DNA from: Aradus depressus | Lineage: Eukaryota > Arthropoda > Insecta > Hemiptera > Aradidae | Assembly: GCA_963662175.1 (NCBI GenBank) | Contig: OY759214.1 | Location: 12,400,001 to 12,464,000, forward strand | Length of the DNA: 64,000 nucleotides | Direction: 5' to 3' | Shown: piece after piece, positions 9,581-37,870 of the stretch | Layout: each line of letters opens with the position of its first letter | Numbering within the stretch: the first letter of the stretch is position 1 | Program-made: the position numbers and the translations under genes | The notes under the pieces: generated by a model | What the model was told of the DNA's origin: nothing | What the model saw: the letters and a program-made list of their open reading frames with translations, nothing else | Database searches by the model: none

Positions 9581-9804
9581 TAAATTTACCAAAACTATGT
9601 AAGTTTGATTATGCCTGAATTTGGGGCGAAACTTCTATAACAATTGAAAAAACAAGTCAGGAGACGATAAAGCTTAGAAGTGCGTTTGTTGAACGGGTCT
9701 CAAAACAAGAAATATTAATTCTCTAAAAATTAATGAATATGCAAAATCTAAGTTGAGGAACGCGGACATATTGTGGAAACTTGTAATAAATGAATAAAAC
9801 AAAC

Positions 9805-9835
<31 letters not shown>

Positions 9836-9937
9836 TTTTGAAATATTGTCTATTCCACTAAAGATATATATACATATAACTAGCGGTTTCGGCTTTATAC
9901 CATCGTCAGGTCTAGTTATGAACATTCATAACTAGAC

Positions 9938-9968
9938 CTGACGATGGTATAAAGCCGAAACCGGTAGT
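9938..9968 (+). ncRNA. Hammerhead-ribozyme-like motif
   Basis: Core CTGACGA at 9938-9944, GG/CC stem II pair, GAAA at 9957-9960, minimal stem III ACCGGU and a cleavable A. A mirror copy lies at 9883-9909 on the other strand. An extra U separates the core from stem II, as in every copy in this window. Activity is not shown. Confidence 0.6.
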
Positions 9969-9977
9969 TATATGTAT

Positions 9978-10319
9978 AGGTTAGGTTTTATGACTCATGC
10001 CCGGGCTTTAACTACGAGGTCATATCGCCTACTACCAGAGTGCTCTTTCGTCACTCTGGTGGACATGAGCCCGACTCTACTGTGGGAGTCCTAAATTTTG
10101 CCTACCCTAAATTTTTATTCATCTAGGGTAGGGGTCTTTAACGAGTACCTGACATCGTACAGGCTCGGGACCATCGCTTAACGTCCCATCCGAAGGACGG
10201 CGTGCTTAAGTTTATTTTACCTCCCAGATAAAATAAACTAAGGGTCTCGGTCGGGCTACGAACCCACGACCTTGAGCTCAGAAGTCAAGCACGCATACCA
10301 CTGAGCTACCGGCGCCCTC
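9978..10319 (-). repeat. tRNA-derived SINE, family 1, full length, inserted in the hammerhead element
   Basis: 342-bp copy flanked by the 11-bp duplication GTTATATGTAT (9967-9977 and 10320-10330). On the minus strand the head reads GGGCGCCGGTAGCTCAGTGG with an A box, and the B box is slightly altered (GGTTCGTAGCCC). The tail is CCCGGGCATGAGTCATAA. It is the best-delimited member of the family and is younger than the element it interrupts. Confidence 0.92.
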
Positions 10320-10576
10320 GTTATATGTATGTATATCTTTAGTGGAATAGACAATATTTCAAAAAATAAAAAAATAAGTTTGTTTTATTCGAATATGCAA
10401 AATATGAATTATTGTGAATGCACTGCATTGCACCTTCTCCAACATTTAATTAATAATACAGTTATGATTTTGTGAACTGGACTTGGGGAAAGAAAGAAAA
10501 AAAATATTGTAATAGATACTTTCATGAGGTATAAAACATAGATACATTTCTCAATATACATTTTCATAGCCACTAT

Positions 10577-13500
10577 TCAGGGTGATGGTCCGAATTTTTC
10601 CATTGGGTAATGTTCTTTGTACTTCTCAATAACTCTAGCCAAATTTTCTTGCTGTTTTCTAAAAAAGATAGACAAAAAATGACAAATTTTATCCAGTGTT
10701 TGCAGAACTGAAAGACTCCATTAGTCGAACTTACTTCAAATTGAGTGGCATTTCCCTGAGAACATCCGTAAACACTTCCTTCCATTCAGGTCTCTGTCGC
10801 TTTTCAGCATCATTCACTGCAGCTATTGCCTGAAGTAATGGGCATCAGTAAAACATTTCATTATAAGAAAATTATATCCAATACAAGTTTAAGATCTCTT
10901 GCAGAAGTTGTAAAAAAAAAAGTTTGCTGGGTAGAAGAGTGTAATAGTTTTGAATCAGGTTGATTTTCTAACTCTGAAATTAGCGAGAATAAGCCACTAT
11001 TGCCGAAAAATTATAAACCGATCTGATTGCTCTCAACAATATAAGAAATGATAAAACAAAAAACAAAGGATTACTTCATATTTCAAGTCCTGATAATGTT
11101 ATAACATGACAATGTACACACATATGTAATTCGATAAATAAAAAGTGTCTCGATTAACCGTGGTTTTCATTTATCCGTGCGACCTCTCCCCCCATTATCA
11201 TGTTATGGTTTAACAGAAACAAATATTATAACTATTATCTTGGTTATATCCCTCTACAACACCTCTGGAGCTCTACCCAACCACACTTCTCTATAATATT
11301 TTTCCTGTCTCGTGTCACTCACCCTTTTGACGGTTTCTTCCTGCCATTCTCCTTCTTTCTCATTGTTCCAAAGTCCTTTCTGCATGATATATTTCTTAAA
11401 TCGAATGACCGGTGACAACTTTTCCCAAGCTGCCACTTCTTCTGGGGTCCTGTACGCTGTACTGTCATCTGACGTGCTGTGGTGACTCATTCTGAAAAAA
11501 ATGAGTGTAGGACATTGAAGAGAGAAAAAGCTTCTCTTTTTACCTTCACTCCACTCGGTCTGAAATTCGAAGTTGAGTTTTTATTGGAATTTCATGTTTT
11601 CCGACCTCATGATCGCAAAATTGAAAAAAAATTGCTGTCGGTGTACACGATATATCCCGATAGAATGTATGTATCATGTAATATATGTATAAAGAGAGAG
11701 GCTTAACACAAAAACTAATAACTGCTGTTATAATGCATATATTGTCACAAAATTTCATATGTAAATTCAAAACCCTATGAGGATGACACCTAATTTTCAT
11801 AGGAATCGGCCGAACGGACTGGGGGATCAGAACGGGGCTCAACTCAAAAATCCCAATAACTGCCATTGTAACGAATGTATCAACAAGAAACTAAATACCC
11901 CATAAGGGACACACCTATTAATTTTCCGCGAAATCGACGCGGGTAGGGGATCAAAAGAGGAGGCTAACTCAAATTCTCTTATGTATTACTATCGATGTAA
12001 TGAATTTATCAACACAAAATTTAGTATGATTCACAACACATATTTGTCAACTATTTATTTTCAGCCCAAATGGTTTTGGAAGGAAAGCAAAAATAAAATT
12101 GAGTAATTCTTGATCACATTTTTTATCTGCACATGTGATATTTTACAGTTTTCTTTTCTATGTATTTTCTATTTATTTTTTTTATCGAAACAATTAAATA
12201 TCTTGGCATTCATTTGGACACAAAATTAACAAGGAAAATCACCACATAAACAACAAACTCACGCAAGCATATACCAGACTATCGCAACTCTACCCCCTCA
12301 TCAACAGAAGATCGACACTCAAGTACACTTGCAGCATTCTTCTCTACACATCTCTACTCAGACCACTATTCACATATGCAGCACTCATCTGGCTAACAAC
12401 AAACAAAACAAACATTCAACAACTTCGAAGATTTGAAAACAAGGTTCTCCGTTTGGCAGTAACCGCACCCTGGTTCGTCCGGAACACCCAAATTCGTCGA
12501 GAACCGGCCTTCCAGATATCGCAGACTTCCTGAAAAGAATTACCACGTCTCACTACGAAGGGCTATCTTTGGTATCGGGAGCCCAATTTTATCGATTGGG
12601 CCAACCAACCCAAAACAGAAGGCTAAAACCTCGCCTTTACCAGCACACCTTGTACTCAACTATTTATTTATTTATTTATTTTTGCTGTGTAGAGTGCTTT
12701 GTGCACTGGAAACAGAAATAAAGTTCTATTTATTTTCTGAGTGTTTGAAGAATATTTCAGTGATTTAAAATCCACTTTTCATCAGACTATTCATGTGATT
12801 CCATCTCTTGTTATGGCTTAGGAAAAATGAAGGATCTACCTGAAAGAAGACTGAGCGTAACCGAATATGTTGGAATCTGATGTGCTTGTAACAGAATTTA
12901 TTTCTTTAATATCGTTAAACTGTACTTTACACTCTGCCTTCACAAGAATACTTCTGCGAGAGATCGAGTGACCGAGTCCAGCAATAATGTAAGTTGAAAT
13001 TTCATCTTTCTTACGACTACTGGCCGTTTAGAACCAAAGCAGTTGTCAAAAAATGTCGATAAAAGTAGATCAATCCAAAATTCACCTAAAAAACCCTCTA
13101 ACATTTGGACATTAAACACACTTGCCTGTGCAATTTTAATATTTCATTAAAATTAAATTAAAGATTTGTACTTCGTAAATAAAAAAATTGTATGTACATA
13201 ACCAAGAGTGTTTTTTGAGGGCGAATGGGTTCGAAACCAGGTCGGGGCTCTTAGATTTTTTATCTGGCAGGTGGAAAAAATATTGAGCACGGCGTCCTTC
13301 GGGTGGGACGTTAAGCGATATCAGGAACTCGTTAAAGACCCCCTACTCTAGATGAATAAACCTGCCTAGGCAGAATTTTGGACTCCGATAATAGAATTGT
13401 CCTCAGGTCCACCAGAGCGACAAAAGAACGCTCTGGTAGTTGGTGATATGACCTCGCAGTTAAAGCGGGCATGAGTCACAATAACTAACCAAGAGTGTTG

Positions 13501-16500
13501 ACTTATGTATGATGAACAAAGATTAAGAGATACGTTTTTTTTTTTTTTTTTTTTTTGGGCAATTAAATTTGAGGGTACGCCAAATAAAAATTCTCGGAAA
13601 GACATTCTTAGGGTAAGAAAATGAGAAGCAGTAATATACCTGTAGGTCATGGCTTCGATCATAGTTGGCCGGTTGGTTGAAATGGTGTACTCTCGTGCCA
13701 TCGTGACTGCGATGTAAACAGCCAGAGGGTCGTTTCCATCCACCCGAATTGTAGATATTCCATAGCCTATAGCCCTTCCAGCTATTCCATCTCCCCCATA
13801 CTGCTCAGTTGAGGGTGTCGAGATGGCATACCCGTTGTTCCGCCTGGAAAATAACTAATAGTTCCATCAGAGTTGTGCATTTGCTACTTGAACTGTATCA
13901 AATAATGTTAAAAAGGAAGAACTTCTAGATTCTCCAAATCCACGAAAATATATACATGTAGAGTATCGGTTTCGGCTTGCGTCATCATCAGTATAACGTT
14001 CAAAAGTGACATTTAAGTTTGCAAGGTTGTCATATTTATACAATATTGAGGTTCTAAGTTGAGGAACGCGGACATATTGTGGAAACTTGTAAGTTCATAA
14101 CTAGACCTGACGATGGTATAAAGCCGAAACCGGTAGTTATATGTATATATATCTTTAGTGGAATAGACAATATTTCAAAAATAATATTGAGGTTACCAAA
14201 GATTACCTGCGGCTGTGACTCCCAAGTACCCTAAAGAAGTCCATGGGGGTGGTGGGAAGTCCTGAGTCAAATATTTGTAACAGAATGTTCCGTTAAGGCA
14301 AGACTACCCCCTCCCTAGACTTCCCTAGGGGACGGGGAGTCACAGCTTTAAGTAATCTCAAGTAACCTTAAGGTTTTTGTATAAATATGACAATCTAGCA
14401 AACTTAAATGTCACTTTTTAACTTTATACTGACGATGGCATAAGCCGAAACGCGTACAATATAAAAGTTAACCAATTTCTTTTGATTATCTTTCCACTCT
14501 AGCAACACAGATCGCAAAAATGTATTCTAACATAATGATTAACTACATTTTTTTTGTATTTCTGTTATTGTCTCATCGCAGAGACCCTATTAGCCCAGTC
14601 ATTTTTTCGTACAGCATTTTCTTCACTAAATATCTGAAATATCTTATAATAAACCTTGCAACAACCTGTTTTAACATGTTTGTCAAATCTTTGCGAAAAC
14701 GGTGAGTTCTATACGAAAAATCGGTTCCAAAGAAAAATGTTTCCCTCATGTAACATGATCAAGTGGCTTTACTTCTTATGTATTCAATTTACATCTCGAT
14801 CAAAAATACAAACAATTTTCGAAATTTTGACTGAGAAAAAAGCATGTTATGATTTTTAAAAGATCCTCGAACCTATCCCCTCGAGAAAATTTTGCTTTTC
14901 GGGAAGAAATCTATAATGGAATGTTTTTTGTATTTTTTAATCCCAATTAAGAATCTCTAAGTTGAGGGAAAAAATTGTAAAAAACGATAAAAATTAGAAA
15001 TATTTATCAAAAATATCATACGCAAAGAATATAACAGGTACTTGAAGAGTAGCAGCGAAATTCATAGCAGCATGTGTATCACCTTCTGAAGCAGCTCCTT
15101 CTCCAAAGTACACCATCACACATCTTTCTTTCTTATCCAATTTGTAAGCATAGGCTGAGCCGACAGCTAAAATGGAATTTTCGTGGTAAATATTTATATT
15201 TTATTCATTTATTACTTCTCCAGCGATACGAAGTGTAGGGGAAGTTATGTAATCGGTCAGAAATGTGATGCTGAGATTTCCACGGAATTTCATATTTTTC
15301 GATCTCCTGATTCAAAAAATGAAATATGAATTTCCATCAATCTATGTGTCTCTGAACATGATAACTCCCGATAGAATAAATGTATCGATACGAAATTTTA
15401 TATGTGAACCCCATAACGACGACGCCTATTCATTTTCAGACAAATGCGCCAGAGGAAGGACTTAACACAAAAACTCTAATTACTATCGTTGTAATGAATG
15501 TATTTGAACGAAATTTCATATGTGAATTCAAAATCCCATAAGGACGCCAGCTTTCAATTTTAAACTGAATCGGCCGAAGGAAAGCGGGAATCAGTGCGAG
15601 TTCAAGGCAAAACCCAAAAAAATATCGAGTATGAGGAACCAGATGTCTCTAGGTATAGAATTGTAGTCCATTGGTTTTGGAGGATGAGCAAAAAACGTTG
15701 TGAATAATTCGTGCTGGGGAAGTACATTGTCGGTGATTCACCGACTACTTTTTCTTTTTTTTCTGGTAATTTACATAGTTAATAAATAGATTACATAGCA
15801 TGAATAACAAACCTTGGGGTATTTGGGTGGCCAGAGTTGAAGATATAGTGACAAAATTCATTTCTGGACATCCATAATGTACAGGCATTTGCTTGCCTTT
15901 TCCAGGATCCAAATTGGTTCCAAAACACTGATTTGCAAATTGGTCCAAAGTAAACCCTCTCCAGAGCAGAACACCTAAACATATACAATATAGTGGTTTT
16001 AAGGTTCAGTAGAAAGATATATTTATAATGAACCAGCCACTGTAGTCTAATAGGTTGAGGTAGTGTTAAACAATGGTCCCGAGCCTGTATGATGTCAGGT
16101 ACTAGTTAAATACCCCTTCCCTAGGTGAATAAAAGTTAGGTACTCCTACATTGGAGTACAAGATTGGTACTCCTACATTGGAGTACAAGGTTGGTACTTC
16201 TACATTGCTAACTAAAAACAGTATTGACAGTTCACTATCCTTGTCCGTCTGAAAACATAGAACGACAGCTGGGTCACCTGGATATAGTATTGAATGCCCT
16301 CACAGGACGCAACATCATAGTTCTGGCTGACGTCAACTCCTGGTGTGTCTCTTGGGGATCGGTTCGAACTGACCGCCGGGGCGACAGGCTATTGGAGCTG
16401 ATCGCCCGCCATGACCTGTGCATAGTCAACGACCCATCCTCACCGCCTACATTTCACGGCTCCCGAGGACACTCTCACATCGATGTCACACTGGTGTCGA

Positions 16501-19101
16501 GTGGACTGTACCCAGCTGTGGGCAGTTGGAGTGTCCGAGAGGTCACGTCTAGCGACCACAGCGTACTGGACGTTTTGCTCTTTGACAACCGCCTCCCCGC
16601 AACCAGGCCCAAAGACCCCCGTTACGCTACACGCAAAACAATATCTGACGCCTTTGTGACCGCCGTTGTTGCCTACTCCTGTGATGAAGAATGGGAAGGT
16701 CTCAGGAGTTCGGACCCGGATGACCAGATTGAGGATGAGGTCGGCAAACTCAGTAATCTATTACTTCGAGCTGCTGACGAGACCATCCCCAAGAAGGTCC
16801 ACCGGGTTAAGAAGGTACCCTGGTGGAGCAAAGATCTTACCCTTGACAAGAGGACCGTTTATCGTGCCAGGCGGAGGTATCAGCGGTGCCGAGACCCAGT
16901 CCAAAGGGAGGCGCGAAGGGAGGAGTACCGGCAGCTCAGCAGGGCGTATGGCAGGAGAGTCGAGACCGCAAAAAAGGAGAGTTGGAGAAGATTTGTTGAG
17001 GAAGAAAGCAGTAGGAACCCGTGGGGAATACCTTACCGTGTCATCACTGGGAGGCTCAAATCAATTCCACCTGTAGCCTCCATCAGGGACGGCCACTTGC
17101 AAGCAATGTCCCTAGCGGAGACGAACAGGTTATTCCTGGAGGAGGCCTTTCCCGCTGACGATCCGGCACAGGATTCGCCCGGCCAACGCGATATCAGGAG
17201 CGCTGCTCGTACCCTGCCAGAGACGGAAAATGCACCTGACTGGGACGAGCTCGATCTGCTCTTGGCGGTTGGGAAACAAAAGAGTGGCGGCGCCCCTGGG
17301 AACGATCTCATCGACGCCGCTATAATCAAGAAAGCATTCCCGACCATCAAGACAGATCTTCTACATCTGTTCAACGCTTGTCTAAGGCGAGGCCATTTCC
17401 CGAGCGCTTGGAAGCGTGCTCTAATATGCACCTTTGTTAAGCCCGGGGACAGGGACCTCTCCTTGGCAAAGAGCTACAGACCAATCAGCCTGCTCCCCGT
17501 CTTTGGGAAGGTACTGGAGACCCTTATCTTCAATGGAATTCAAACGCAAGTACACGCCTTAGTATCCCATAGGCAATTTGGCTGCATGAGGGGTAGATCT
17601 GCCGAGGACGCATTGAGGATGCTGAGAGCAGACGTAGAAGAACGCGACGGCAAATATGCCCTCTGCGTTTTCTTCGATATTGCGTCGGCCTTTGATTGCG
17701 CCTGGTGGCCAGCCATCCTCACGAGACTGCGGACTATGGAATTGCCTAGGAATTTATTTGCGCTGATATCTAGCTTCCTCTGCGATCGATCCGCCACCAT
17801 AAGCCAGCTGTATACTAGTACTACAGTGGACGTCACTAGAGGCTGTCCTCAGGGATCGGTTCTCGGACCAACCCTGTGGAATATACTCTTTGACGGGTTG
17901 CTCCGTGACCTCGAGAACCGTGGGCATAAGGCAATCGCCTATGTCGACGATCTCGTGGTTACAGTTCAGGCTGATAGTCATGCCAACCTTACCCTTCGCG
18001 CGCAAACTGCAATAGACGATATAGGCAGCTGGTGCTGCGCCAATAAGCTGGCTCTCTCACCGAGTAAGACCTCGGCCTTACTGATGAGGGGGAGACCCGA
18101 TGCTCGACAACCCCTGGTTTTGACAGTCCATGGGCGGCACATTGAATGCCCAGCTGTGATAACGTACCTTGGGGTGCGGATCGCACGAGGCCTGAAAGTG
18201 ACGCCCCACGTTGTTGCCATTAAAGAAAAGACGATAGCCACTTTCAACGCCCTGAGTCGCCTAGCCCGCGCGACGTGGGGCCTCGACTATTCCGCGTGTA
18301 GGACCATCTACACAGGGGTATTCGTGGCTGTAGCAAGGTACGCTGCTGCAGGTTGGTGGCACCGCCCCACGAATCGGCAGCGCACGATTCTGACGCAAGC
18401 CCAGAGAGCAGCCCTTTTAAGAGTTACAAGGGCTTATCGTACTGTCTCTACGGCTGCGCTACAGGTACTAGCGGGAGCCGCCCCCATTGACTTGATCTTG
18501 GATGGGGCTGTCGCTTCGTATTTCTGTAGACGCAACATGCCCTTAGAAGCAGATATTGAAGAGCCCTTACGTCTAGCCCTAGAGGAAGAGATGCGCGGAC
18601 AGTCCAGACCAGTGCGCTGCAAGGACATCGTCCAGAATTGGATTGTGGAAAAATGGCAACAACGTTGGTCACGATGCCCGGATGGCCGAACGACGTACGC
18701 ATACTTCCCGGACGTCCAGGTACGCCTTGACTCAACATGGGTACAGCCTAATCACTGGACGTCTCAAATATTATCAGGTCATGGTGATTTCAACTCCAAG
18801 CTGTTCTTCTTTCACAGGAAGAACACCCCGAACTGTTCGTGCGGCGGTATCGAGACTGCAGAACATGTGGTCCTCGAATGCCCGCTGTACGACCAAGCTA
18901 GGGTGGAGTTGATTCATGGGACAAGATCGTATTTGGGACTAGATCTACGGCAGATGGTGACGGAAACTGACTACCCGATGTTCTGCCGATTCGTCGGCTC
19001 CTGGCGGGAGCAGAAACAGGCAATGTAATGATCCCGAGCTTTGCCTAAACGTAGACTGGGTGATGTTGCTGCAACGCAAGGCGCACCCTCTTTTAAAACT
19101 G

Positions 19102-19143
<42 letters not shown>

Positions 19144-20148: not shown

Positions 20149-20830
20149 TATAAATATTAACTTAATAGCACAATCACCAAAAAAAATAAACACAAGCCGG
20201 CCGATGACAGAGAATTATTAAATAAAAGTAATGAGTCATGACGCCAAGCTTTTATCAGGTTATCAACATGCAATAGATGTTACGTAGGACGTGTGATATA
20301 ATGTTTCAACATTTACAGCGATACTAAGAAAACATTGCTCTATTCATTAATGAAATAAAATAAAAACAATACGTAGAACAAAAAAAACATGATAGTTGGC
20401 AATCTTGGTGCCAATGGATTGAAGTTTTAAAGCTATGAAAATAAGATAAAAAGAAGTTTAAATGAGATCTACGTGTTCTCATGTTTTCGACGAGATTCAT
20501 AATCAATGGTAAATATTAATACCTCGAATTATATACATATATATTTTATAATATATAACAAGCAATAAAATGTTATTATTTTCTTCCTTTCTCCCCTCCA
20601 TAATAAAGTAGTTGTTAGCTAATATATGATCGATTTGTGTACATCGATTATGTGATAAGCTAATGTTTACGTTTGTAAAAGCTACGTGTCGTTTTTAATT
20701 AATTTTCTAATAATACTAAATACTATTATAAGATAATATGTGTTCATTTTTCTTCTAAGTACTAACAGATAGATAAAAAACTATATCGTAATTCTATTTG
20801 ATTATATTTATTGCTGATGATGTTTTTAAT
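20149..20830. promoter_or_regulatory. Divergent intergenic region between BCKDHA and SCFD2
   Basis: The two start codons (20148 on -, 20831 on +) are 682 bp apart and point away from each other, and no repeat is recognised between them. Both 5' UTRs and promoters must fit here unless there are distant upstream exons. It is a probable bidirectional promoter; I could not identify individual core elements. Confidence 0.5.
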
Positions 20831-23800
20831 ATGGTTTTAAATATAAAATACGCTACAGATAACTGTTGGAAAGAGGTGTGCAAAAAAGTACGAAATGCTG
20901 TCATTTTCGTGGATAATTGTTCTGTAGAATGTTTACATTGGCATGGAGGCCTTCTTCGATTGCTGAGCGCTGGAGCCACTGAAGTCAAAGAATTTTCTTC
21001 TTTCGAAGTGAGAATGAATTGTAGTCATGTATTATATTTTTATTATTTAAGGTTCCGTAGAGTGAAGACTGTGTACGAAACCCCATTCACGTTTGACGTC
21101 TATCCCCCACGATATCTTGGAAACCATTGAATCTATATGCAGCACAGAGTAATAGGGATGGGAAAAGAAAATATTAAATGAATACTACAATTTCACAGGT
21201 TGAATTGGATAGTTGGAATCAATATCAAAAACAAATGCTAGAAATTACATTTATATTTAATTACCTAGTTTATTTAACTAATTCAACTATTTCTGTAATA
21301 TAATGGGAAAACAAATTTTATGAAGTTTTTTTCTAAAACTTAATGATTCACTGCTGGCGATATGTGTCATGATGAATTATGAACTACGTTGTGGTTAATT
21401 GATGTTCATGAATACAATTGTGTTCGTGTTAGAGCTTATTGTTTATCACTATACAAGTAAGAAGATTTGTATTGCCAGTACTTATTTGAAATGTTGTTGA
21501 TTCTTTTTCATGTTCTTATTCTTACTATTATTCAGTCAATATTAAATATAAATTTTATATTAAAAAAAAAAAAAAATTCGAATCTGTTATTGTTCAATAT
21601 CCTTAGCAGTGGCATACGCAGAACCAAAATATATAATACAGAACGATGAATTTCCTTAATTTATATTTAATAGTTCAAATTATTATAAAATCTACGGAAT
21701 TTCAATGTCTGATCTGATCACAAATTTCTAGTATTTTATAAGCCTTTTTGGTATAATTAAGTTTTAATTGACGAATATTATATTTTTCAGGATGGAGGTG
21801 AAGAGAAAAAGGCTGTATTTTTGGTGGGAAAGCCATTGGTTGGAGCCACCAGGATGATTTTGAAAGATATAATTTCGAATAGTTCTTTTGAGCACTGTAT
21901 TTTAATTATGTGTTGTGGTCCAGTCGTGCTCAGTGTTGTAGATAATCACAAAGACTCACAATCCAATGCCTCCACCAATTTGACACCTTTACATATGTTG
22001 GAAATGGACATGCTCAATTGGATGAAGAACAAGGTATCAATTATTGCTTTATTTATATCTAGTGGTTTTATTCAAGTCTGTAAGAAGTTGAAGTCAATGT
22101 ACAGTTTTCTATGATGTAATTTTTGTCAGTTATGACTTCACAATGAAGAGGCCATGTTATAGTCAAAACCATATATACAAGACAAGGGTTGTAACTTATG
22201 ATTGAGTATAGTATAAATATTATACGTTTTATAGATTTCTGGCAGGTTAGTAATGTTATCTGCCCAGTTAGTAACTGCTACTGGGCTTATATCAATGCAC
22301 ACCTGTAAAATTTTCTGAAAATCTGATGAACAGTTAGGGAGCTGGCAGTAATTTTGTTTCGTGCCCCCACAAATCCTCCCCGTTCACAATGAGATGCAAC
22401 ATAGGCTATTTTTGTACCGGACTTATAAAATGATGCTACTACACATTCATGAAAATACGATCCATCGTTGAAGAGCTATCACTCATTTTATGTTTGGGTC
22501 TCCCAGTTCGAATATCAGCTCAAAGTAATGTGTATTTTTTTTAAATGTATTTATATATGTTTCAATCATTTAGCATATAGATATTTACCTAAGCGCAACT
22601 GACAGGGTGCAAGCCTGACTCCAGTACAGTCACTGCACGCCGAACTAACACATAACACTCACAACATGCCATTTAGTATGCCTTTGTACATTTTTTAAAA
22701 TACCTAGCTAACTAAATGTTACTTTTCTTCCCTAGACATATACAGCAGAGATATTTCATTTCCCGTTTGGCCTGATCTCTATTACTGATTATTTCTTCTG
22801 TGCTCCCACGTTAAACGACATAGTACCTTGGATGAACGAAGACATGGAATATGTGATCACTCAATGTAGAATGGTAAGAAAATCTTTATATTTTTATTTA
22901 TCTTTTTATTTAAAAAAGCTTCTGTTGTTAATAGAAATATTTCATGTCTTTTTTAAATAGTCTTTAACCATGCTGGGGTGAGTTGGCTGAAGATGGTTTT
23001 CCGCTAAATGATTGGCCTGTCACTAAACAATTTACCATTTAATGATTAACTCATCTATATTTTTATTTATCATATATATTTATTGATGGGCACTCGTATG
23101 TATGTATACATGTGTGTACATCTAGGAACCTACGCATCCAATGCTTTTATTCCTTCTCTGTCATTCCTTATCCAGATTTAGTTACCTAATGTAGGGGTGT
23201 TTAAGCCGACATCGCACAGGCTCGGGACCATCGTTTAACTTCCCATCCGAAGGATGACGTGCTCTAAGGTTTTTTTACCTCCTGAACAAAAAATCGTAAG
23301 GACCTCCATTGGCCATGTTCCGAACCCGCGATGCTCAGCAGGCTAGCACGCTACCTTTTGAGCTACCGGCGCTCTCTATTAATAGATAAATCCCAACCAG
23401 AAACTATTCAGAACCCGTATTGTCCTTTAAGACATGGCAACTCTAAAATCAACATTTAAAAAAATAATAAGATTTTTATGATGGGTGTGTAACTCCTCTA
23501 AGATTATTTCTTCATCAAATAGCCATCCGAGATATATTCAGAGTCAGATTGTATAATCGAGGAAAAATGAACTAAAGTTAATTTTTTGTTCAGAATAGCC
23601 CCAGGTTAACTGAGCTATCAGGGTTTTGATTCTTACGTTGAAAATGACAGCTTTAGTCTCGAAAATAATTTGGTACAAAATTCAGTAGGAATGAATTCTA
23701 AATAAATATTCTGAGGTTGAAACCGAAAACAGAATCTTATGGCGCTGGTTGTGTCTGTGTTTTTCACCGTCTCTCTATAGACACAACCATTTGGTGAGAA

Positions 23801-26800
23801 GGAAAGTTGCTTTTTTTCCTGAAATATCCAAAATATGGCCCAATGCTGGAAAATCATAAATAAACACCAGAGGGTTTCCTCCCCAAGTATGGATGAACAT
23901 TAGGGGGTCGCAAAAACAATTTTTTTTAAAAATTGTATATTCAATATAAGTTTGTGGAGGATCAAAAATATCATGCTTTAGTTTGGGAAACAGGGTTTAG
24001 GGCAGACAGATGTACACCTCGATATGGTGGCTGTCCTTCCTAAAATGTGTGTGTTTCACTAACAGTTCTCTTCTTTTCCCTGTGTGTAGACTCGAGAGTG
24101 GGAAGTGGAGCTACTCCCTCGGGAACTTGAGCTGGGTGTGACCCATGTGATGGCAACTCTGAATAGTCTCCTGTCTCAGTTGAACGTACAGGAGGATATC
24201 TACTGTGTAGGACCCTTCAGCTCCTTTGTCGGATGTCATCTTCAGAAGTATTCTGCCAGCATATCAAGAGCTAAAGTTTGTTTACTACTAATCAATTTAA
24301 ATAATTGTAAGGCTGATAACAAAAGTAAACGGATTATTCTCAATTTTCTTTCATTCAACTATAAAACCCAGTCATATCCCACAGAATCTATCAATCAAAA
24401 TTTGGTGTTTCTGCAAAACATATTGTTATAAAAAAAAAAAAAATGGCAAAATGTGAGAGATTTTTCTTATTTCCTGAAAAGTTAAACTTGTGAGTTAATC
24501 CAACTTTTTTTTTTGTTTAAAAACACTAAGCTTATAAGAACTATCGCATACTCAATTCAAATTCAACTGTAATTACAACATAAATGTTCAAATTCACATT
24601 ATGTGTTACGGCTGCGGTGCTAAAATCCATGTTATACTATATATCTTCATCTTTCAAGTTCGAATTGTATGGTATTCTGTATATGAATGTTTACGCAATA
24701 CAAGAAACATTAATTTTCATATCGCTATAAAATAAGATTCAGTGTTAATTTTTTTTTTATTATGTGGAATATTTTTTAATAGAAACTAACCGACTAATAA
24801 TAATAATGAGGAGAAGACTATATATGAAGGATTCTTAGCAAGTATCATAGGTATGACATATATTTTAAATTTTATATTCAATGTATGTTTGTGGAGGATC
24901 AAAAACATCATCCTTTAGTTTGGGAAACAGGGTTTAAGGCACACAGATGTTCAACACCTCCATAGGGTGGTTCCTAAAATTTGTGTTTCACATGATGCAC
25001 TGTTCTGAAATGTTTGTTTGAGTGTTTGTCTGCTTCTCCAATCTCCCACAGCCCAAACCATCCAAAATAGAGACTTCAAACTTGGTATGTAAATGTCGTG
25101 CGGTCGTCCAACTTCAGGAAAACTACCTACACAAGACGCATAAGCACAAATATACAGCGCACTAAAATTAAAATAAATAATACAAGCGTGTTATCAAATT
25201 AAAGGTACTAATGTTCACAATATGAAACAAGAATTTTCTAAACTTCAACAGATTAGAATAATCTGCGAAACAAAATGGATAAATATAGCCGGAGCCAAAA
25301 TACTAGTGTGATGTGTAAATAACATTCATTTGATAATGTTTCAGAGTGCGACCTCGAAAATGGGGTTGCTACTCATCGACAGGACTTTGGATTTGGCCAG
25401 TGTTACCTATTATGGGAAGAACTGTTTTTTGGATCGGATGAAGAGTGTACTACCACCGTTTCCTGGTCATAGTACCGATGTGGCTATTGACATGTCTATT
25501 TTATGCCCTTCCAAAGTGTAGGTAAAGGTTATTTGTATATTAACATAATTGTTTTTCACTTTTTTGGGTTATGTAAAAAGATTTTTAATTCATATATAAT
25601 ATATTATTACAGCTCACTTCTCCCATTAATTTTTTTCCTTCTCAAAAAATAACAATTATACACATTTCTCTCTTCAGTTAATTTATGGTTTCCAGATTTA
25701 CTTTGTGAAGCTCCATTCTAGGAATAGATAATTAAAATGCACAATTTCTTTGTCAAACTTCACTATATATTCTCAAATACTCAACTAGTTTCGCCGTGTT
25801 AAGGCATTATCAAGAGTCACTTACAAACTGACAGAATTGGTTGACAGGGTAGAGGGTACAGTTAAGGAGGGGGTTTTTAGGTAATGACGGGGAATCCCTT
25901 GTTTTTGTTACTCTATACATTCCAATAAACAGATATTTACAAGATAATAATAAATATAAAATAAAAGGAAGAAAGAAAATGATATATATATAAAATCTAA
26001 TAAAGCGAATCTAACAGTAAAGTGTTGGTATTTATATAGGTATGACTCATGAATTATATAAATGTAACATATAATAAATATTAAAGTGAATAAAAACAAA
26101 TACATAGAATTTAAAGACAAATTAAAACATCAAATGAAAATTATAGTATTCTCTGAATGTCAGTTGGCAAAACATTTCCACAATCATCAGACTCTTAGCT
26201 ACTTGATATTTAAATTAAGAAGGGGGGAATGGTTCAGTTCTATTTGTTCATTTAGCATTATAATATCGTTATTTTTGTTCAGTTTATTTATTTCTACCGC
26301 TTCCAGTAAATTCAAAAGTGGACCTTTTTGGCAGATATGTATTATATTTGGTTTGTGTTGTGTGTCTATGGTATGTCCTGTTTCTGTGAGATGTTGGTGA
26401 AATGAGGAAGTGTTGGAGTTTGTATTTCTTGTGTGTTCCCTGTATCTAATCTTAAAGGATCTCCCTGTCTGTCCCGCGTATTTGGCATTACATTCTGGGC
26501 ATTCCAATTGATACACTCCACATTTATCCATTAAATCTATTTTTTCTTTTGAATTAAATAATATTCTACCCAGATTGGGGTTGGATTTGAAGGCTGGATT
26601 CAAGTTATGCTTACTTAATTTCTTTTTTATTATTTGGGATAATCTACCAGTGTAAGGGATAGAGTAATAATTACATTTTTCTGTTTGTGGTTTAGGGTAG
26701 ATATTATGATAAGTTATCTGTTTTAATTTACTAGATATTAGTTTGTCTATTATACTGGTAGTAAATTAAAACAGATAACTTATCATAATATCTACCCTAA

Positions 26801-29800
26801 ACCACAAACAGAAAAATGTAATTATTACTCTATCCCTTACACTGGTAGATTATCCCAAATAATAAAAAAGAAATTAAGTAAGCATAACTTGAATCCAGCC
26901 TTCAAATCCAACCCCAATCTGGGTAGAATATTATTTAATTCAAAAGAAAAAATAGATTTAATGGATAAATGTGGAGTGTATCAATTGGAATGCCCAGAAT
27001 GTAATGCCAAATACGCGGGACAGACAGGGAGATCCTTTAAGATTAGATACAGGGAACACACAAGAAATACAAACTCCAACACTTCCTCATTTCACCAACA
27101 TCTCACAGAAACAGGACATACCATAGACACACAACACAAACCAAATATAATACATATCTGCCAAAAAGGTCCACTTTTGAATTTACTGGAAGCGGTAGAA
27201 ATAAATAAACTGAACAAAAATAACGATATTATAATGCTAAATGAACAAATAGAACTGAACCATTCCCCCCTTCTTAATTTAAATATCAAGTAGCTAAGAG
27301 TCTGATGATTGTGGAAATGTTTTGCCAACTGACATTCAGAGAATACTATAATTTTCATTTGATGTTTTAATTTGTCTTTAAATTCTTTGTATTTGTTTTT
27401 ATTCACTTTAATATTTATTATATGTTACATTTATATAATTCATGAGTCATACCTATATAAATACCAACACTTTACTGTTAGATTCGCTTTATTAGATTTC
27501 ATATATATATATTATTTTCTTTCTTCCTTTTCTTTTATATTTATTATTATCTTGTAAATATCTGTTCATTGGAATGTATAGAGTAACAAAAACAAGGGAT
27601 TCCCCGTCATTACCTAAAAACCCCCTCCTTAACTGTACCCTCTACCCTGTCAACCAATTCTGTCAGTTTGTAAGTGACTCTTGATAATGCCTTAACACGG
27701 CGAAACTAGTTGAGTATTTGAGAATATATAGTGAAGTTTGACAAAGAAATTGTGCATTTTAATTATCTATTCTCTCTTCAGTATTTAAAATACACGTTTG
27801 GAAGAATTTTTATATATAGATAGGATTTGTCATTAGTAAATTAGCCTTAAATATGTGATTGATATATCGAGAGGTATTCATTGGATTCTGACAGAGTAGT
27901 CTCGCGGAGGGTCTGTTGTTCCCTGTGGAGTGGTCGACGTCAGATAATGTTCCCCGGGTTTTGTCAATGGGACTGGAGCTGCCTATGTCAAGGCACATCA
28001 GGGTACCCTACAACAATAGCCCATCATTTCGAGCCACTCGACTTTATTTGGGGGGCCATGCGGGCTAGAGCGTAGGGCTCTGGTCGCATGGCCTCACCAT
28101 GGTTTGCGGGTTCGAATCCCGTCCGGGGGGTCCCGGGGCCATGGATGTCGTAAGTAACTAGATGAAACAGTGACATGGCTAATATGCATCGTAGATAAGG
28201 GCAAAAAAAAAAAAAACACATGTGCTTTCTTAGGATAACTATTCCATCTGTCAATCAGAATCTTCCTTTCATAGAACACATTTTTTTTTTTAATTTTCAT
28301 TTAATTGGCCTTATGTACTGATGATGCGTATTAGCCATGTCTCTATAACGGTGTTATTTAGTTATTTACAACATCCATGGTCTCGGGATTCTATCTACGC
28401 AAAAAAACTCTCTTCCGGATGGGATTCGAACCCTCAACCATAGTGAGACCTTGCGACCAAAGCCCTACGCTCTAGCCCGCACGGCCACCATGGCCCCTAG
28501 AAGGCTTCTATATTTCAACTAGTCAAAAGATTTGATCACATATTCATTCATTCACAACGGCGCGACAACCCACTAATGAGTCAAGGCCTCCTCCAACAGT
28601 GTCCGCCAGTTATCCCTATTTTGTGCAGCTGCTCTCCAGTGTCGGACTCCAAGCAGGCTCCTCGCATCATTCGCCACACCATCCTGCCATCTCAGCTTCG
28701 GTCTCCCGACGCGTCTAGTTCCGTTGATCACATATAAGTTTATTAATATTATAGTAATGAGGGCACCTGTAGCTCAGTGGTATGCGTGCTTGCTTTCTGA
28801 GCTCAAGATTGTGGGTTCGAAACCCGATTTTATCTGGGAGTTAAGCGATGGTCCCGAACTTGTACGATGTCAGGTACACGTTAAATACCCCTGCCCTAGG
28901 CGAATAAAACTTTAGGGTAGGCAAAATTCAGGACTCCCACAGATAGAGTCGGGCTCATGTCCACCAGAGTGACGAAAGAGTGCTTTACGAAAGTATGCGA
29001 TATGACCTCGTAGTTAAAGCCCGGGCATGAGTCAAATAACTTACTAATATTATAGTTTATCTTGTTTATATTTAATAATTTTCTTTCTTGAAATAGTTTA
29101 TTCCACAACATAGATATACATAGACTACCGATTTCCATATTACACTATCGTCATTAGTTATAAACTAAGCTCGTTTAAACCATGGTGTAATGCCGATATC
29201 AGTAGTTCATATATACAATTTTTATGGCATAGACAATATTTCAAAAATAAGTTTGTTTTATTTATTTATCAGTTTTACCTTTTAGTGAACCAAGTGATGA
29301 ACTCTATGTCCCTGGATGTTTACATGAACCAATGGACGAGGATATGATGGAATGGCTGATTCATAGATCTCCTCAAGACATTGTTGAGAAACTGTGCCAA
29401 CGAGTTGTTGAGATCTGCTCAGTAGATAAACGAAAGTCCTCTTCCACAATAAAAGACTTGGAGAAACTAATTGAAAAAAATTTTAAAATGACGGAAGGAA
29501 ACGAGGATAAAATTAAGAGAAATGCTGGATTATTACAGGTGAATTTTAGGTTTTTTCTTTCTCACTTTTATACGTTATTTAAAATCTGAAAATGGATTAT
29601 TCTTTGGTCAGTTATTTTCAAAAGAAAACGAGATGCCGTAACTATGAGATGATTTTTAAAAATGTTTAAGAAAATCCAAGTTTTTATGATTGACATATTG
29701 ACGTGTATGAAGAATAATCTTGGATTTCTTGTCTATATTATTATTATCAGTTTTGTTGTCTTAATAGTTTATCGAAATAACCATAGAACATTTAGAAAAT

Positions 29801-32770
29801 CACATCGCATTTTATTTGTAAGTGGAGATGGAGGACTTAAAATCGGTAAACTACCATAGTGCGATCTTTAAATATTAGCTTTTTTTCAATTTTTTTTTCT
29901 TCTTTTTTTAGGTTGCGATTGGTGTTATAGAAACTTACAAATCCAAGATCTTTGAGAAGATACAGAGGGCGGAGAGTTATCAAAAACTAATTTTACAGCA
30001 AGTTGCTACGCAAAATAAAAAAACAAATGAAGCTATAGATCAGGTAAATTGAAAGAAGTAAATCACAACGGGGCTAGGAGCTGAATAATATGTTTCAAAT
30101 AAACATCCCAATTTGGTTCTGTTTGCCAAGATATAATAATATTATATAATAAGATCGCAGGTTCGAAACCCGGCCGAGGCCCTTTGGTTTTCCATTCAAT
30201 TCAGTATTGAGCATGAATAACTAAACCTAGGTAGGCCAAATTTAGGACTCCCACAGTAGGGTCGGGCTCATGTCCACCAGAGGGGCGAATGATCGCTGTG
30301 GTAGTATGAGATATGATTTCGCAGTAAAAGCCCGTAGATGAGTTATAATTACTAACTACAAGAAATAATTGAAATATAATTAAATATATGACATTATATC
30401 GAAAGTAAGAGTGAAAACAAGAATAAAATGAAATAAATGTGTTCATAATATTATGTTTAAATATTATTATGTTTATCTTATATTAAGTACTCTAGTGGCG
30501 GAGTTAGGAACTATACGGCGATAACTTAGAAAAGTTTTTAGATATTTATGTTAATATTTTTGTGATGAACAAGATTCATGAAATTAATTTTCCTGGTAGG
30601 AACGTAGGCAGTAATTTTATTTCAGAAAAATATTTTAAATAAATTTGTATTAATAATACATCAACTCATTTATGGAACCCTTCAGTAAGTGATCTGCTCA
30701 GACCTCTGTATTTTTTTAATTATTAATCAGTAATCTATTTATTTTTTTCTTTCTCCACAGTTGATCTGTACAATCAATTCAAGGCATGAGGAGGGCCTAA
30801 CGATGGAACACATCTTGTCAATATTGGTGTTTTTCTATAATGCCATTGGCAAAGACTTTTTAATAGAACCAGATCAGGAAGCCTTATTACAATCTGCATT
30901 AGCTGAAGCTATTGTTGAAGAAAAACAGAGTGAAACACCTGATGATTTTTTAGATATAGACAGTATTTTTGATGTTAAACAATACTGTTCCATAATATTT
31001 AAAAAACTTAATAGTATTAAAAACTCCAGAGCTAACCTAATTAAGTACAAGTAAGTAAATTATTTATAACGAAAATATACTATAACTTTATTTCAATTTA
31101 ATATAATAAATAACTTTTTTTAAAATTATTGATTGCAGGAGTATAACTACTTATGAGGGTTCCATGATGCCATTGCATTACTCAAATTTAATTAATAATA
31201 TTATTTGCGATATTGTTGATGTCACAAAACCTGAAATTGCAGACCTTTTGCACAAACCAAATCTCGGCGTTAGAGAAAATTTCACATTCCGTTTCAGGTA
31301 TATTACCTTAATGTATTAGTTTAATTAATGCCGATGTTTCTTTGACAGCTACTCAAGTGATGAAAACTGACATTATTGCAGAGATATTATGAAATAATTC
31401 AAATGAACTTGAAATAAATAAAACTTGTTTATTTATGATATTGTCTAATTTCACCAACTATATTTACATGGGAGTACTTTCGGTATTTCTACCATCCTCA
31501 GCCAAAAGCATAAGAGATAAGACTGGTGAAATTAGACAATATCATAAAATACTCAAGTGATGTTTTTTTCTGGTGGAAAATTTTGATCTAACGCCAATAA
31601 AAAATGTACGGTCTTCAAATCATTTCATACTGACATTACTGGGTATAAGAAAGTCACCTTCAGATTACGTTGTTCAATGAAACAAATAAATCAGTTGACG
31701 CCAACACATTACTTTCATGTTCTCAGTGATGCAAATATGAAAGGCATTTGAGAGAGGAAGGGAGCGTGATCTGAACAAAAGTGGTTGGTATAGTTAGTTA
31801 TTGTGACTAATGCCCGGCCTCTAACTACGAGGTCATATCGACTACTACCAGAGCGCTCTTTCGTTGCTCTAATGAACATGGGCCCCACTTTACGACAGCG
31901 GCAGTCCTAAGTGTCAACCCTGATTTATTCACCGTGGGTGGGGTAGGGGTCATTAACGAGTACCTGACATCGCACAGGCTCGGGATCATCGGTTAATGTC
32001 CCACCAAAGGATGGCATGCTCAAGGTTTTTTTACCTCTCAGATAAAAAAACCTAAGGACCTCGGCCGGGTTTTGAATTCGCGATTTTCAGCTCAGTAGAC
32101 AAGCACGCTACCGGTGCCCTCAAGACTGCACCATCAAGGTTGTATAAGAAAGTTCTGTTGTGGTCACATTACATTTTTTTTTCTTAAGTATAAAGCTTAA
32201 ATGAGGGTTGGTACTTCATTGCCACGACCCTCTGGATTATTAGTTGCGAAATATAATATTCAAAATGATCAAATGGAACTATTTTTATTGAAAAAACTAT
32301 GGCTTTGGATGTTAGAAATTCACTTTTTGAGAGGGCTGATGTTTATTTAATAAATAAATAAAACAATATTATGAACTAGACCTGACGATGGTGTGAGGCC
32401 GAAACCGGTAGTTTTATTTTTATAAATATCTTTAGTGGAATAGACAATATTTCAAAAAATAAGTTTGTTTTATTTATTTATTACAAATTCCACAATTTGT
32501 CCGCGTTCCTCAACTTAGAAGTTGTTTATTTAATAGGTGATTATTTTTTTCAGTAAAATGTTGAACACAACGAGACCCCATCTGATGGACAATGACAACG
32601 TCATGGTGTTCGTGATAGGAGGCGTTACTGGTCAGGAAGTGAAGTTTATCAAAGACTGTTTCAAGGCCTACGACAAGAATGTCCTTATCGGTTCTACCAG
32701 TTTCATTTCGCCGGGTCTTCTTCTCAGAAATATATTTAATAATGACCCCTTAAATCCATTTTCTATATAA
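20831..32770 (+). CDS. SCFD2: Sec1 family domain-containing protein 2 orthologue
   Basis: Ten exons: 20831-21007, 21791-22033, 22736-22873, 24090-24275, 25345-25517, 29286-29538, 29912-30043, 30761-31050, 31139-31297 and 32554-32770. They total 1968 nt, 655 aa plus TAA, all phase-consistent. SCFD2 is a divergent Sec1/Munc18-like protein, presumed to act in SNARE-dependent traffic; its role is poorly known. Recognisable blocks are ECLHWHGGLLRLLSAGA and KEFSSFE (exon 1), EEKKAVFLVGKPL (exon 2), TAEIFHFPFG (exon 3), GLLLIDRTLDLASVTYYG and LPPFPGHSTDVAIDM (exon 5), LYVPGCL (exon 6) and VMVFVIGGVTGQEVKFIKD (exon 10). Length is close to the vertebrate protein (about 680 aa). The first in-frame ATG is chosen; the frame is open upstream but has no earlier ATG. 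Intron 5 holds a PLE palindrome and two SINE families, and intron 9 two hammerhead elements. Confidence 0.95.
23175..23376 (-). repeat. tRNA-derived SINE, family 1, 5' part
   Basis: Reverse-oriented head and proximal body: ATCGCACAGGCTCGGGACCA, B box region TTCCGAACCCGCGA, and GAGCTACCGGCGCTCTC at the right (all as read on +). The distal body and tail are absent. It lies in SCFD2 intron 3. Confidence 0.8.
23938..24060 (+). repeat. Direct repeat upstream of SCFD2 exon 4 (copy 1)
   Basis: Shares GTTTGTGGAGGATCAAAAA, TTTAGTTTGGGAAACAGGG and a TAAAAT-GTGTTTCAC end with 24876-24992. It lies 30 bp before exon 4; the family is unknown. Confidence 0.65.
24876..24992 (+). repeat. Direct repeat downstream of SCFD2 exon 4 (copy 2)
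   Basis: About 85% similar by eye to 23938-24060, same orientation, on the other side of exon 4. It could be an interspersed repeat inserted twice or part of an old local duplication. Confidence 0.65.
26199..26733 (-). CDS. PLE GIY-YIG endonuclease domain, partial (left arm)
   Basis: The open frame runs from the palindrome centre to the stop, without its own 5' end. It has the linker (YHNIYPKPQTEKCNYYSIPY, then KHNLNPAFKSNPN) and the nuclease core GVYQLECPECNAKYAGQTGR, FKIRYREH and FHQHLTETGH, ending LEAVEINKLNKNND...LLNLNIK. GIY is represented by GVY and YIG by YAG, and the Cys pair CPEC is typical of PLE endonucleases. The RT domain is absent, so it cannot move on its own. Confidence 0.88.
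26763..27293 (+). CDS. PLE GIY-YIG endonuclease domain, partial (right arm)
   Basis: Mirror copy of the left-arm frame, about 176 codons ending TAG at 27291-27293. The first internal ATG/TTG candidates give 134 aa, but the open frame extends back to the palindrome centre, so this is a truncated ORF, not a gene with its own start. The amino-acid sequence is the same as the left arm, indicating a recent origin or ongoing conversion of the palindrome. Confidence 0.88.
   Translation, partial: KLKQITYHNIYPKPQTEKCNYYSIPYTGRLSQIIKKKLSKHNLNPAFKSNPNLGRILFNSKEKIDLMDKCGVYQLECPECNAKYAGQTGRSFKIRYREHTRNTNSNTSSFHQHLTETGHTIDTQHKPNIIHICQKGPLLNLLEAVEINKLNKNNDIIMLNEQIELNHSPLLNLNIK
27683..27720 (+). ncRNA. Degenerate hammerhead-like motif at PLE end
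   Basis: TTGATAA, U, stem II GCC/GGC, GAAA, CTAGTTGA. The usual first C and the catalytic G of CTGANGA are T and A here, so it is probably inactive. The mirror copy is near 25774-25811. Confidence 0.4.
28046..28215 (+). repeat. tRNA-derived SINE, family 2
   Basis: Head GGGCTAGAGCGTAGGGCTCT with B box GGTTCGAATCCCG, then CCCGGGGCCATGGATGTCGT and ATGGCTAATATGCATCG. This is a different tRNA-like head and body from family 1. It lies in SCFD2 intron 5. Confidence 0.78.
28312..28499 (-). repeat. tRNA-derived SINE, family 2, inverted neighbour
   Basis: Reverse-oriented copy: GATGATGCGTATTAGCCATG at the left (tail side), B box GGGATTCGAACC and CTCTAGCCCGCACGGCC at the right. It is tail-to-tail with the copy at 28046-28215. 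Confidence 0.8.
28540..28722 (-). pseudogene. RTE-like LINE ORF 3'-terminal fragment
   Basis: The minus strand reads GRPKLRWQDGVANDARSLLG, then VRHWRAAAQNRDNWRTLLEE and ALTH-stop. This is the conserved C-terminal stretch of RTE-type and related LINE polyproteins. Only this tail remains. It lies in SCFD2 intron 5. Confidence 0.65.
28756..29044 (+). repeat. tRNA-derived SINE, family 1, with TSD
   Basis: Flanked by TAATATTATAGT (28744-28755 and 29045-29056). Head GAGGGCACCTGTAGCTCAGT with A box, B box GGTTCGAAACCCG, a short deletion after the B box, then the body and CCCGGGCATGAGTCAAATAA. It lies in SCFD2 intron 5. Confidence 0.92.
29085..29272. repeat. Degenerate PLE-related inverted pair next to SCFD2 exon 6
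   Basis: Inverted hammerhead-like remnants (minus near 29117-29155, plus near 29182-29212: ATGGTGTAATGCCGATATCA) followed by GCATAGACAATATTTCAAAA and the T-rich tail AAGTTTGTTTTATTTATTTA. The tail ends ~14 bp before the exon 6 acceptor at 29285. Confidence 0.55.
30152..30358 (+). repeat. SINE family 1, truncated
   Basis: Begins at the B box (GGTTCGAAACCCGGCCGAGG), has an internal deletion, and ends GTAGATGAGTTATAATTACT. It lies in SCFD2 intron 7. Confidence 0.7.
31363..31549 (-). mobile_element. 187-bp hammerhead mini-element with 13-bp TSD (subfamily A)
   Basis: The duplication TACTCAAGTGATG (31350-31362 and 31550-31562) brackets 187 bp. A 21-bp perfect inverted repeat (31435-31455 with 31525-31545; GGTGAAATTAGACAATATCA on +) encloses a hammerhead core on the minus strand (about 31471-31502): CTGAGGA, GGUA/UACC stem II with a GAAA loop, GAAA, AGUACU-C. 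It lies in SCFD2 intron 9. Confidence 0.85.
31790..32120 (-). repeat. tRNA-derived SINE, family 1
   Basis: Tail at left (TAGTTAGTTATTGTGACT), body with ACCTGACATCGCACAGGCTC, and a damaged head at right (AAGCACGCTACCGGTGCCC; part of the A-box region deleted). It lies in SCFD2 intron 9. Confidence 0.82.
32353..32522 (+). mobile_element. 170-bp hammerhead mini-element with 13-bp TSD (subfamily B)
   Basis: The duplication TGTTTATTTAATA (32340-32352 and 32523-32535) brackets 170 bp. The core CTGACGA is at 32382-32388, then TGGTGTGAGGCC, GAAA (32401-32404) and CCGGTA. Downstream come TTTAGTGGAATAGACAATAT, the T-rich AAGTTTGTTTTATTTATTTA and a terminal block ending GTCCGCGTTCCTCAACTTAG, the complement of the first bases of the 9748 and 14054 elements. 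It ends 31 bp before the SCFD2 exon 10. Confidence 0.85.
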
Positions 32771-37500: not shown

Positions 37501-37557
37501 CGAGCCGATCCCCAGGCGACTGACCAGGAATTAACATCCGCCAAGATGATCACGTTG
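34554..37557 (-). mobile_element. R1-clade LINE, second subfamily, 5'-truncated
   Basis: GC-rich 3.0-kb insert. On the minus strand its 3' end is C13 followed by A16 (34582-34554). A 7-bp repeat TAAGATG at 34547-34553 and 37558-37564 directly flanks the A tail and the 5' truncation point, so it is a likely short target duplication. The 5' end falls in the endonuclease domain about 20 codons further in than the copy at 16244. The 3' UTR is longer (about 290 bp) and unlike that copy. Confidence 0.9.
34839..37557 (-). CDS. R1-like ORF2: endonuclease (C-terminal part) and reverse transcriptase, intact frame
   Basis: Open from the truncation point for about 905 codons. It has [38 protein letters not shown] and TSSDHCVIDV (endonuclease end), then [60 protein letters not shown], catalytic YVDD (35916-35927) and [17 protein letters not shown] near the C-terminus. 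By eye it is roughly 70-75% identical to the ORF at 16244-19028, so the two belong to related subfamilies, not to one recent burst. No stops or frameshifts. Confidence 0.93.
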
Positions 37558-37564
37558 TAAGATG

Positions 37565-37870
37565 CTATGTAGAGATCTCAATATCCCGACTGCCAATCTA
37601 ATCCTGATTCCAAGCATTCTATAGAAACCTTTCTTCTCGTTGCAAGTCTCTCCCACAAGCACTATTCTCTCATTCCCATCCGGATATTCCTCCTCGCAGC
37701 TTGGACAGGAGATGGCCACTCGATCTTCTCTCTAGAGGTAGTGAACTATACTTTCGAGGGAGTGTCAGCGCTGGATGGTTTCTCCCGTCAATTGACACTG
37801 TTCTATATAGATTGAGAAACAAAAAAAAAAAAATATATATATATATGTATAAAACAGTAACGTGATGTAA
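37565..37870. other. Flank of the R1 insertion, no feature recognised
   Basis: An open frame on the minus strand (to 37719, with CPSCEEEYPDGNERIVLVGE) could be a relic of another transposon, but I do not recognise the family. An A-rich and AT-repeat tract lies at 37820-37850. Confidence 0.3.

Follow-up and report, generated by a model that had tools for sequence, protein, structure and literature searches.

Short hammerhead-bearing insertions in the genome of Aradus depressus, probably solo leaders of a Penelope-like element

The window analyzed here is a 64-kb stretch of the genome of Aradus depressus (697.7 Mb in 74 contigs), corresponding to positions 12,400,001-12,464,000 of contig OY759214.1. 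It contains four short insertions in which no protein was seen and whose edges, when compared, carry exact direct repeats of 12-13 bp in every case. Element 1 (9748..10390) is flanked by a 13-bp target site duplication (TSD; 9735..9747 and 10391..10403, GAATATGCAAAAT) and is composed of two head-to-head arms of the leader of a Penelope-like element (PLE) and a nested SINE. Its left arm (9748..9923, minus strand) bears a hammerhead ribozyme (HHR) and extends, with the tail, to the position termed site c below; the first part of the right arm (9925..9978, plus strand) contains an HHR with the stem III ACCGGU, and the second part (10317..10390, plus strand) ends at site b. The minus-strand hammerhead of this element, at 9909, has a stem III broken by one base (ACCGCU). 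The SINE (about 9979-10316) was labeled tRNA-like by eye; ARAGORN found no tRNA in the window, a result that does not bear on the origin of the SINE. Element 2 (14054..14182, plus strand; 12-bp TSD AATATTGAGGTT at 14042..14053 and 14183..14194) combines an inverted c arm made up of the tail only (14054-14092) with a b arm whose HHR core (14107..14136, plus strand) is intact; cleavage of this core is predicted after position 14135, a position that we take from the type I consensus. It is nested inside an older inverted hammerhead element (13950-14480, family C, plus-arm stem III ACGCGU), for which no TSD was found. Element 3 (31363..31549, minus strand; 13-bp TSD TACTCAAGTGATG at 31350..31362 and 31550..31562) has a full c arm with the HHR stem III AGUACU and, on its right side, a short b-type arm of about 25 nt. 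Element 4 (32353..32522, plus strand; 13-bp TSD TGTTTATTTAATA at 32340..32352 and 32523..32535) consists of a c arm, which carries the HHR and the tail, and an inverted b arm of about 12 nt fused to it. Elements 1, 2 and 4 (three of the four) belong to family A and element 3 to family B.

Given the window composition, an exact 12-mer is expected by chance at a fixed pair of edges with p of about 1.4e-7, and with p of about 2.4e-5 if each edge is allowed to slide by 6. The initial annotation had delimited the four insertions by repeats of 13, 12, 13 and 13 bp, and all edges proved exact as first placed. It had also described recurring tail phrases; TAGACAATAT and AAGTTTGTTTTATT do recur, but element 3 represents family B, and element 2 is without AAGTTTGTTTTATT.

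A PLE endonuclease remnant had been noticed nearby as well and is real. It is part of a 2.1-kb palindromic insertion, here called PLE D (25679..27769), with its own 13-bp TSD (25666..25678 and 27770..27782), arms that are 99.4% identical and GIY-YIG coding sequence in each arm; the GIY-YIG match reaches 21.5 bits, just below the Pfam cut-off of 22.6. By our own reading its tailed end is on the left and the untailed one on the right. Hammerhead-like cores occur in both arms, with U3/A8 in place of C3/G8, possibly a pair-preserving change. A one-armed family-B copy (40388..40520, plus strand) lies between 10-bp repeats (ATGGAGTAGA, 40378-40387 and 40521-40530). More decayed copies of the leader families are found at 29050-29283, 40628-40749, 56630-57486 and 59430-59532, with a SINE, identified by eye, inside the copy at 56-57 kb. 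A 938-aa open frame at 16212-19028 contains RVT_1 and the endonuclease domains of a non-LTR retrotransposon, and a 912-aa open frame at 34839-37577 resembles it by eye.

The hammerhead blocks have a common layout (CTGANGA followed by an additional U, a short stem II, GAAA and a self-complementary stem III of 6 nt), and their stem III palindromes mark four families in the window: ACCGGU (A), AGUACU (B), ACGCGU (C) and ACUAGU (D). A descriptor tuned to these motifs (CTGANGA, stem II of at least 3 bp, 6-nt palindromic stem III, H17 not G) matched six times in the 64-kb window, compared with a mean of 0.01 in 100 dinucleotide shuffles, and once in the neighboring 200 kb. The type I hammerhead layout ascribed to the insertions beforehand stands in so far as all four contain minimal blocks of the PLE type, but an Infernal/Rfam check returned no hammerhead match in the window: no Rfam model matched at gathering score over its whole length, and the hammerhead families gave nothing at E <= 10 in 9700-14600 (for 31-33 kb the search was limited to the gathering score). 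The Rfam hammerhead models matched nowhere in the whole genome either, but as the 14 control genomes were equally silent, this carries no information. By the lack of an Rfam match in the window and by their 6-nt palindromic stem III the blocks differ from the canonical type I HHRs of animal retrozymes; they are minimal HHRs located in a pseudo-LTR (pLTR) near the start of the ORF, as is typical of PLEs. RNA folding of single hammerheads gave little signal (z from -2.88 to 0.09, n=6). miRNA matches at 9.9 kb were rejected, the signal being the palindrome itself. According to a review, as far as its text was available, minimal PLE hammerheads may cleave as dimers, and the palindromic stem III would suit a dimeric ribozyme. 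Exact patterns and the PLE D protein revealed no relatives among viral contigs or in the phage search.

A genome search with element 2 gave 719 first-look candidates, the best 40 of which were scored (75 matches), and 30 loci were fetched; the fetched copies are few and are the closest matches, not a random sample. Several of them extend upstream of the hammerhead into a common 3'UTR, and some further into a GIY-YIG endonuclease frame. The C10 copy, which is TSD-flanked and has one b and one c end, comprises a 248-aa endonuclease frame, the 3'UTR and a family-A HHR. In the same region (C10:23012831-23020969; L040, L051 and L039) a PLE-bearing stretch of about 2.76 kb is present twice, 5 kb apart and with 99.4% identity. 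The endonuclease protein yielded 8003 first-look candidates (a loose count); 150 of these were scored, and all showed at least 96% identity. Open frames of up to 839 aa, ending in the endonuclease, occur among the 150, and some matches are arranged in tandem with a period of exactly 2852 bp. Across the tandem junction of L057, the 3'UTR is followed by the HHR, site b, the ATG, site c and the ORF; the leader runs on into the ORF, and the family-A tail holds the first ORF codons. An internal piece of the L057 array encodes a reverse transcriptase (RVT_1, 54.7 bits), and the GIY-YIG match of the parent reaches 29.8 bits. Together with the frames of up to 839 aa, these two domains indicate an ORF of PLE type with RT and GIY-YIG, assembled here from pieces. 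Judged from sequence, the family-A short elements match the leader and the 3' end of an abundant, young, autonomous-looking PLE.

For the description of ends, the hammerhead core base C3 was set as +1. Site b then extends from +80 to +109, and site c, the PLE 'tail', from +138 to +147, about 25 nt inside the ORF. Leader-only insertions are common and about 118-300 bp long. In 28 TSD-flanked family-A insertions (the three window elements, 22 loci out of L022-L050, and in addition L002, L004 and the C10 copy), each of the two outer ends corresponds to a PLE 3' end, with one at b and the other at c. The script called b+c in 26/28 (16 with c left and b right, 10 with b left and c right) and neither b+b nor c+c in any; in the other two (L048, L002) one end was left unclassed by the script, and b+c was assigned by eye. 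Omitted from the 28 were duplicates (L021, which is element 2; L038, which is L029; L040, the C10 copy) as well as L035, L037, L044, L046, L013 and L016, which have no clear TSD or an end beyond the locus. A hand list to which L035, L037, L044, L013 and L016 were added had mixed ends in 33/33 cases and is not an independent test. The neighboring 200 kb is the only sample not picked by similarity; its four two-ended copies (L002, L004, L013, L016) were all b+c by eye, two of them with a TSD, and single-ended pieces in L001, L003, L005 and L017 fell outside the end classification. The element-2 query should not favor mixed ends, because within the hammerhead it matches both types of arm equally. 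By our own arithmetic, element 3 ends at about +70/+139 and PLE D at about +89/+135, that is, with one untailed and one tailed end each.

The TSDs of 26 insertions (24 of family A, element 3 and PLE D; hand-typed) measure 12-16 bp, with a median of 13, and have an AT content of 79% vs 64% in the window. TSDs outside this list are those of L027 (31 bp, in a repetitive site), L002 (18 bp), L004 (12 bp) and the C10 copy (12 bp). A tail of 30-45 nt on one of two inverted ends, a TSD and an AT-rich target are thus present together, as in PLEs. Head-to-head palindromes, which are numerous among these insertions, might also arise by snap-back self-priming of a single cDNA, as suggested in PMC3846280 (available in part). 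Copying of a hairpin should, however, give like ends, whereas the 28 TSD-flanked insertions show one b and one c; moreover, tail-only c arms such as that of element 2 are not palindromes, and in L050 and the C10 copy the two arms carry different AT-repeat alleles, a weak argument given the nature of the repeat. Self-priming is therefore regarded as very improbable.

The inner ends, counted by hand for 51 arms, cluster at a preferred point. Among the b arms (n=27), 21 end between -12 and -18 and the other six further upstream; the c arms (n=24) end between -12 and -18 in 12 cases, upstream of that range in four, at +87 to +107 in seven and at -7 in one, namely element 4, which has a different sequence at this point. 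A start at the predicted cleavage site (+28 to +32) was seen in none of the 51 arms. The count does not include the c arms of L028, L034 and L035, the 12-nt b arm found in element 4, both arms of L044 or those of L002, L004, L013 and L016. Seven short c arms in the count, those of element 2 and L022-L027, comprise nothing but the tail and stop where the b arm begins; those of L028, L034 and L035 (11-22 nt by eye) fall short of site b, and element 4 shows the reverse pattern, with its 12-nt b arm next to a full c arm. In family B, element 3 and the copy at 40388 are about 87% alike and have a common 5' end by eye, so this family, too, seems to have a preferred start. At 21 junctions between arms, filler wholly found in the arms was seen in two (L030, 17 nt; L033, 12 nt), overlaps of 4-13 nt in four (L031, L042, L045, L048), of 1 nt in six and of 2 nt in one; the arms account for only part of the longer fillers of L029, L037 and L049. 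The classified insertions have inverted arms and not the tandem direct HHR monomer repeats of animal retrozymes. An origin of the short copies from randomly 5'-truncated PLEs was set aside in view of the fixed 5' point. Long copies do exist from which short ones could be derived by internal deletion after insertion, but such deletions would not repeatedly hit the breakpoints b, c and -14 at loci that are independent of one another, which makes this origin extremely improbable.

Family A is divided into the subfamilies A1 and A2, which differ in the AT repeat, site b and the tail (L022-L063; tail GCGTTCCTC in A1 and GCGTTTCTC in A2). Young short copies are mostly A1, with L023 and L027 (A2) as exceptions, whereas all six ORF-bearing leaders read (L053-L057, L063) are A2. 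Among the expected 5' regions of 12 fetched long copies, L052, L054, L057 and L063 continue upstream into the 3'UTR in a tandem-like manner; the ORF-bearing L055 and L056 have an inverted c arm, followed by an ORF-side arm from +123 and +124, respectively; L053 starts at +83 beside inverted endonuclease sequence; and L058-L062 show flank, inverted sequence or another leader end, without an ORF-joined leader there. With 0/12 starting at -12 to -18, the long copies speak against the 5' point of the short copies as an RNA start, or at least lend it no support.

The unequal distribution of A1 and A2, the lack of the short-copy 5' point in 12/12 long-copy 5' regions, the fixed short termini and the many near-identical short copies would be in line with a retrozyme-like, non-autonomous family in its own right, whose transcripts come from short copies and which a PLE mobilizes in trans, as proposed in the initial annotation. 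However, A1 also occurs as longer PLE pieces, with 3'UTR in L032, L042, L044, L046, L048 and L049 and C-terminal endonuclease coding sequence in L044, L046 and L049; because of the latter, an A1 PLE must have existed. Longer copies run from the same ribozyme block into the PLE 3'UTR and endonuclease, ORF-bearing copies carry the same kind of leader, the arms are inverted and free of HHR monomer repeats, and the HHR was apparently copied uncleaved (0/51 arms at the cleavage point). In addition, the short copies end about 25 nt into the ORF, whereas the template of a lizard PLE needed the first 172 nt (PMC11167929, available portion). A separate family of this kind is thus unlikely. Comparison of genomic copies with their flanks upheld the TSDs and very consistent short termini of the proposal but not its separate family; it was right that the units are ribozyme-bearing, protein-less, short, TSD-flanked and made by PLE machinery.

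The short insertions are probably solo-leader PLE insertions, produced by twin-primed copying of an uncleaved leader RNA. This reading starts from the observed ends, TSDs, b/c asymmetry, preferred 5' point and parent PLE; an RNA 5' end at the preferred point, a collision on a single RNA and end joining would be its deduced steps. The template RNA would have its 5' end a short way upstream of the hammerhead (-12 to -18 relative to C3) and would offer two start sites for reverse transcription downstream of the hammerhead, b and c. The GIY-YIG endonuclease would make a staggered cut, mostly of 12-14 bp, each DNA end would serve as a primer for reverse transcription, with b as the start site for one end and c for the other, the hammerhead would be copied uncleaved, and the two cDNAs would be united head to head through end joining. 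A 5'-proximal b/c pair would give a short element and a downstream pair a long or ORF-bearing one. If one RNA served both primings, the c-primed cDNA would halt at the b-primed hybrid, leaving a tail-only c arm, and the ORF-side arm would halt just past the c-primed start (L055, L056). The starts at +123/+124 fit a halt at the c-primed hybrid, and together with the tail-only c arms they suggest that both priming events can share one RNA. In LINE-1 twin priming, both DNA ends prime on one RNA and the 5' part is inverted; there the process is occasional and uses variable sites, whereas here it is seemingly regular and tied to two fixed sites.

Several observations count against twin priming. A second RNA, or strand displacement, has to be assumed for palindromes in which both arms reach -14; the long-copy starts (0/12), the arms of L028, L034, L035 and element 4 and the partly explained fillers are contrary to it; the A1/A2 split also weighs against it; and with its single arm the family-B copy at 40388-40520 is at odds with the scheme. 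The differing arm alleles of L050 and the C10 copy fit two RNAs, but weakly, as such repeats mutate fast. In a stricter version twin priming would be obligatory: a dimeric enzyme would allow both ends of the staggered cut to be extended on one leader RNA, each from one of two fixed sites separated by about 45 nt, and the arm lengths would depend on where the two cDNAs collide. We hold this version to be about equally likely to be correct or wrong.

According to the available portion of PMC11167929, a lizard PLE cuts and extends both strands in vitro, with two adjacent start sites that bound the tail; the start site did not differ between strands, which counts against one site per end. HHR mutants insert normally in vitro in the same work, with which a ribozyme passed over intact agrees, and the later insertion steps were left for validation. 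Endonuclease-containing PLEs such as Pen2a of Adineta vaga (PMC3846280) and PAc of Anolis (PMC11167929), as far as these sources were accessible, have in common with the present element RT and GIY-YIG, tandem units, a tail on one of two inverted pLTRs, a short TSD and AT-rich targets. In PAc, too, an HHR is located where the ORF begins, and the printed sequence, as we read it, places the same additional U and the ORF start within the hammerhead block. The accessible text of PMC3846280 gives inverted pLTRs, optionally with a tail on one of them, and TSDs of 8-10 bp, with self-priming proposed and left open. Unlike in the accessible accounts of Pen2a and PAc, leader-only insertions are common here, and every classified TSD-flanked family-A case is b+c. 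Animal non-LTR retrozymes (PMC7229834, in part) are likewise short and non-coding, with a type I HHR, a TSD, a similar size range and PLE co-occurrence, but consist of tandem direct repeats with canonical HHRs and form circular RNAs, in contrast to the inverted arms and the minimal, apparently uncleaved HHRs found here; full PLE units are tandem here too, but with a period of 2852 bp. The minimal type I HHRs dispersed in animal genomes (PMC7761336, in part) are equally minimal and scattered in non-coding DNA, but are described there as dispersed motifs, some of them in PLE pLTRs, whereas complete insertions with defined ends are present here. PMC6155905, also available in part, was among the literature set beside these insertions. 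A literature search on twin priming and Penelope gave no title about PLE insertion among the papers listed, and the term 'solo pLTR' was absent from the papers listed in another search. While the kind of element is known, the leader-only class and the strict b/c rule look new, though they are perhaps contained in the PLE-hammerhead papers of 2014/2017 or the PLE survey of 2021.

In the accessible parts of PMC3846280 and PMC11167929, the insertion route of PLEs and the one-sided tail on their inverted copies are unsettled. The many young copies in A. depressus are insertion footprints that argue against self-priming; they predict one start site per DNA end and the position of the RNA 5' end, and they suggest that the ribozyme of the template was uncut. 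If twin priming is obligatory, the PLE tail and the inverted pLTRs would be footprints of one reaction and dispersed minimal hammerheads would be leader-length products, which offers a possible origin for the minimal hammerheads scattered in animal genomes.
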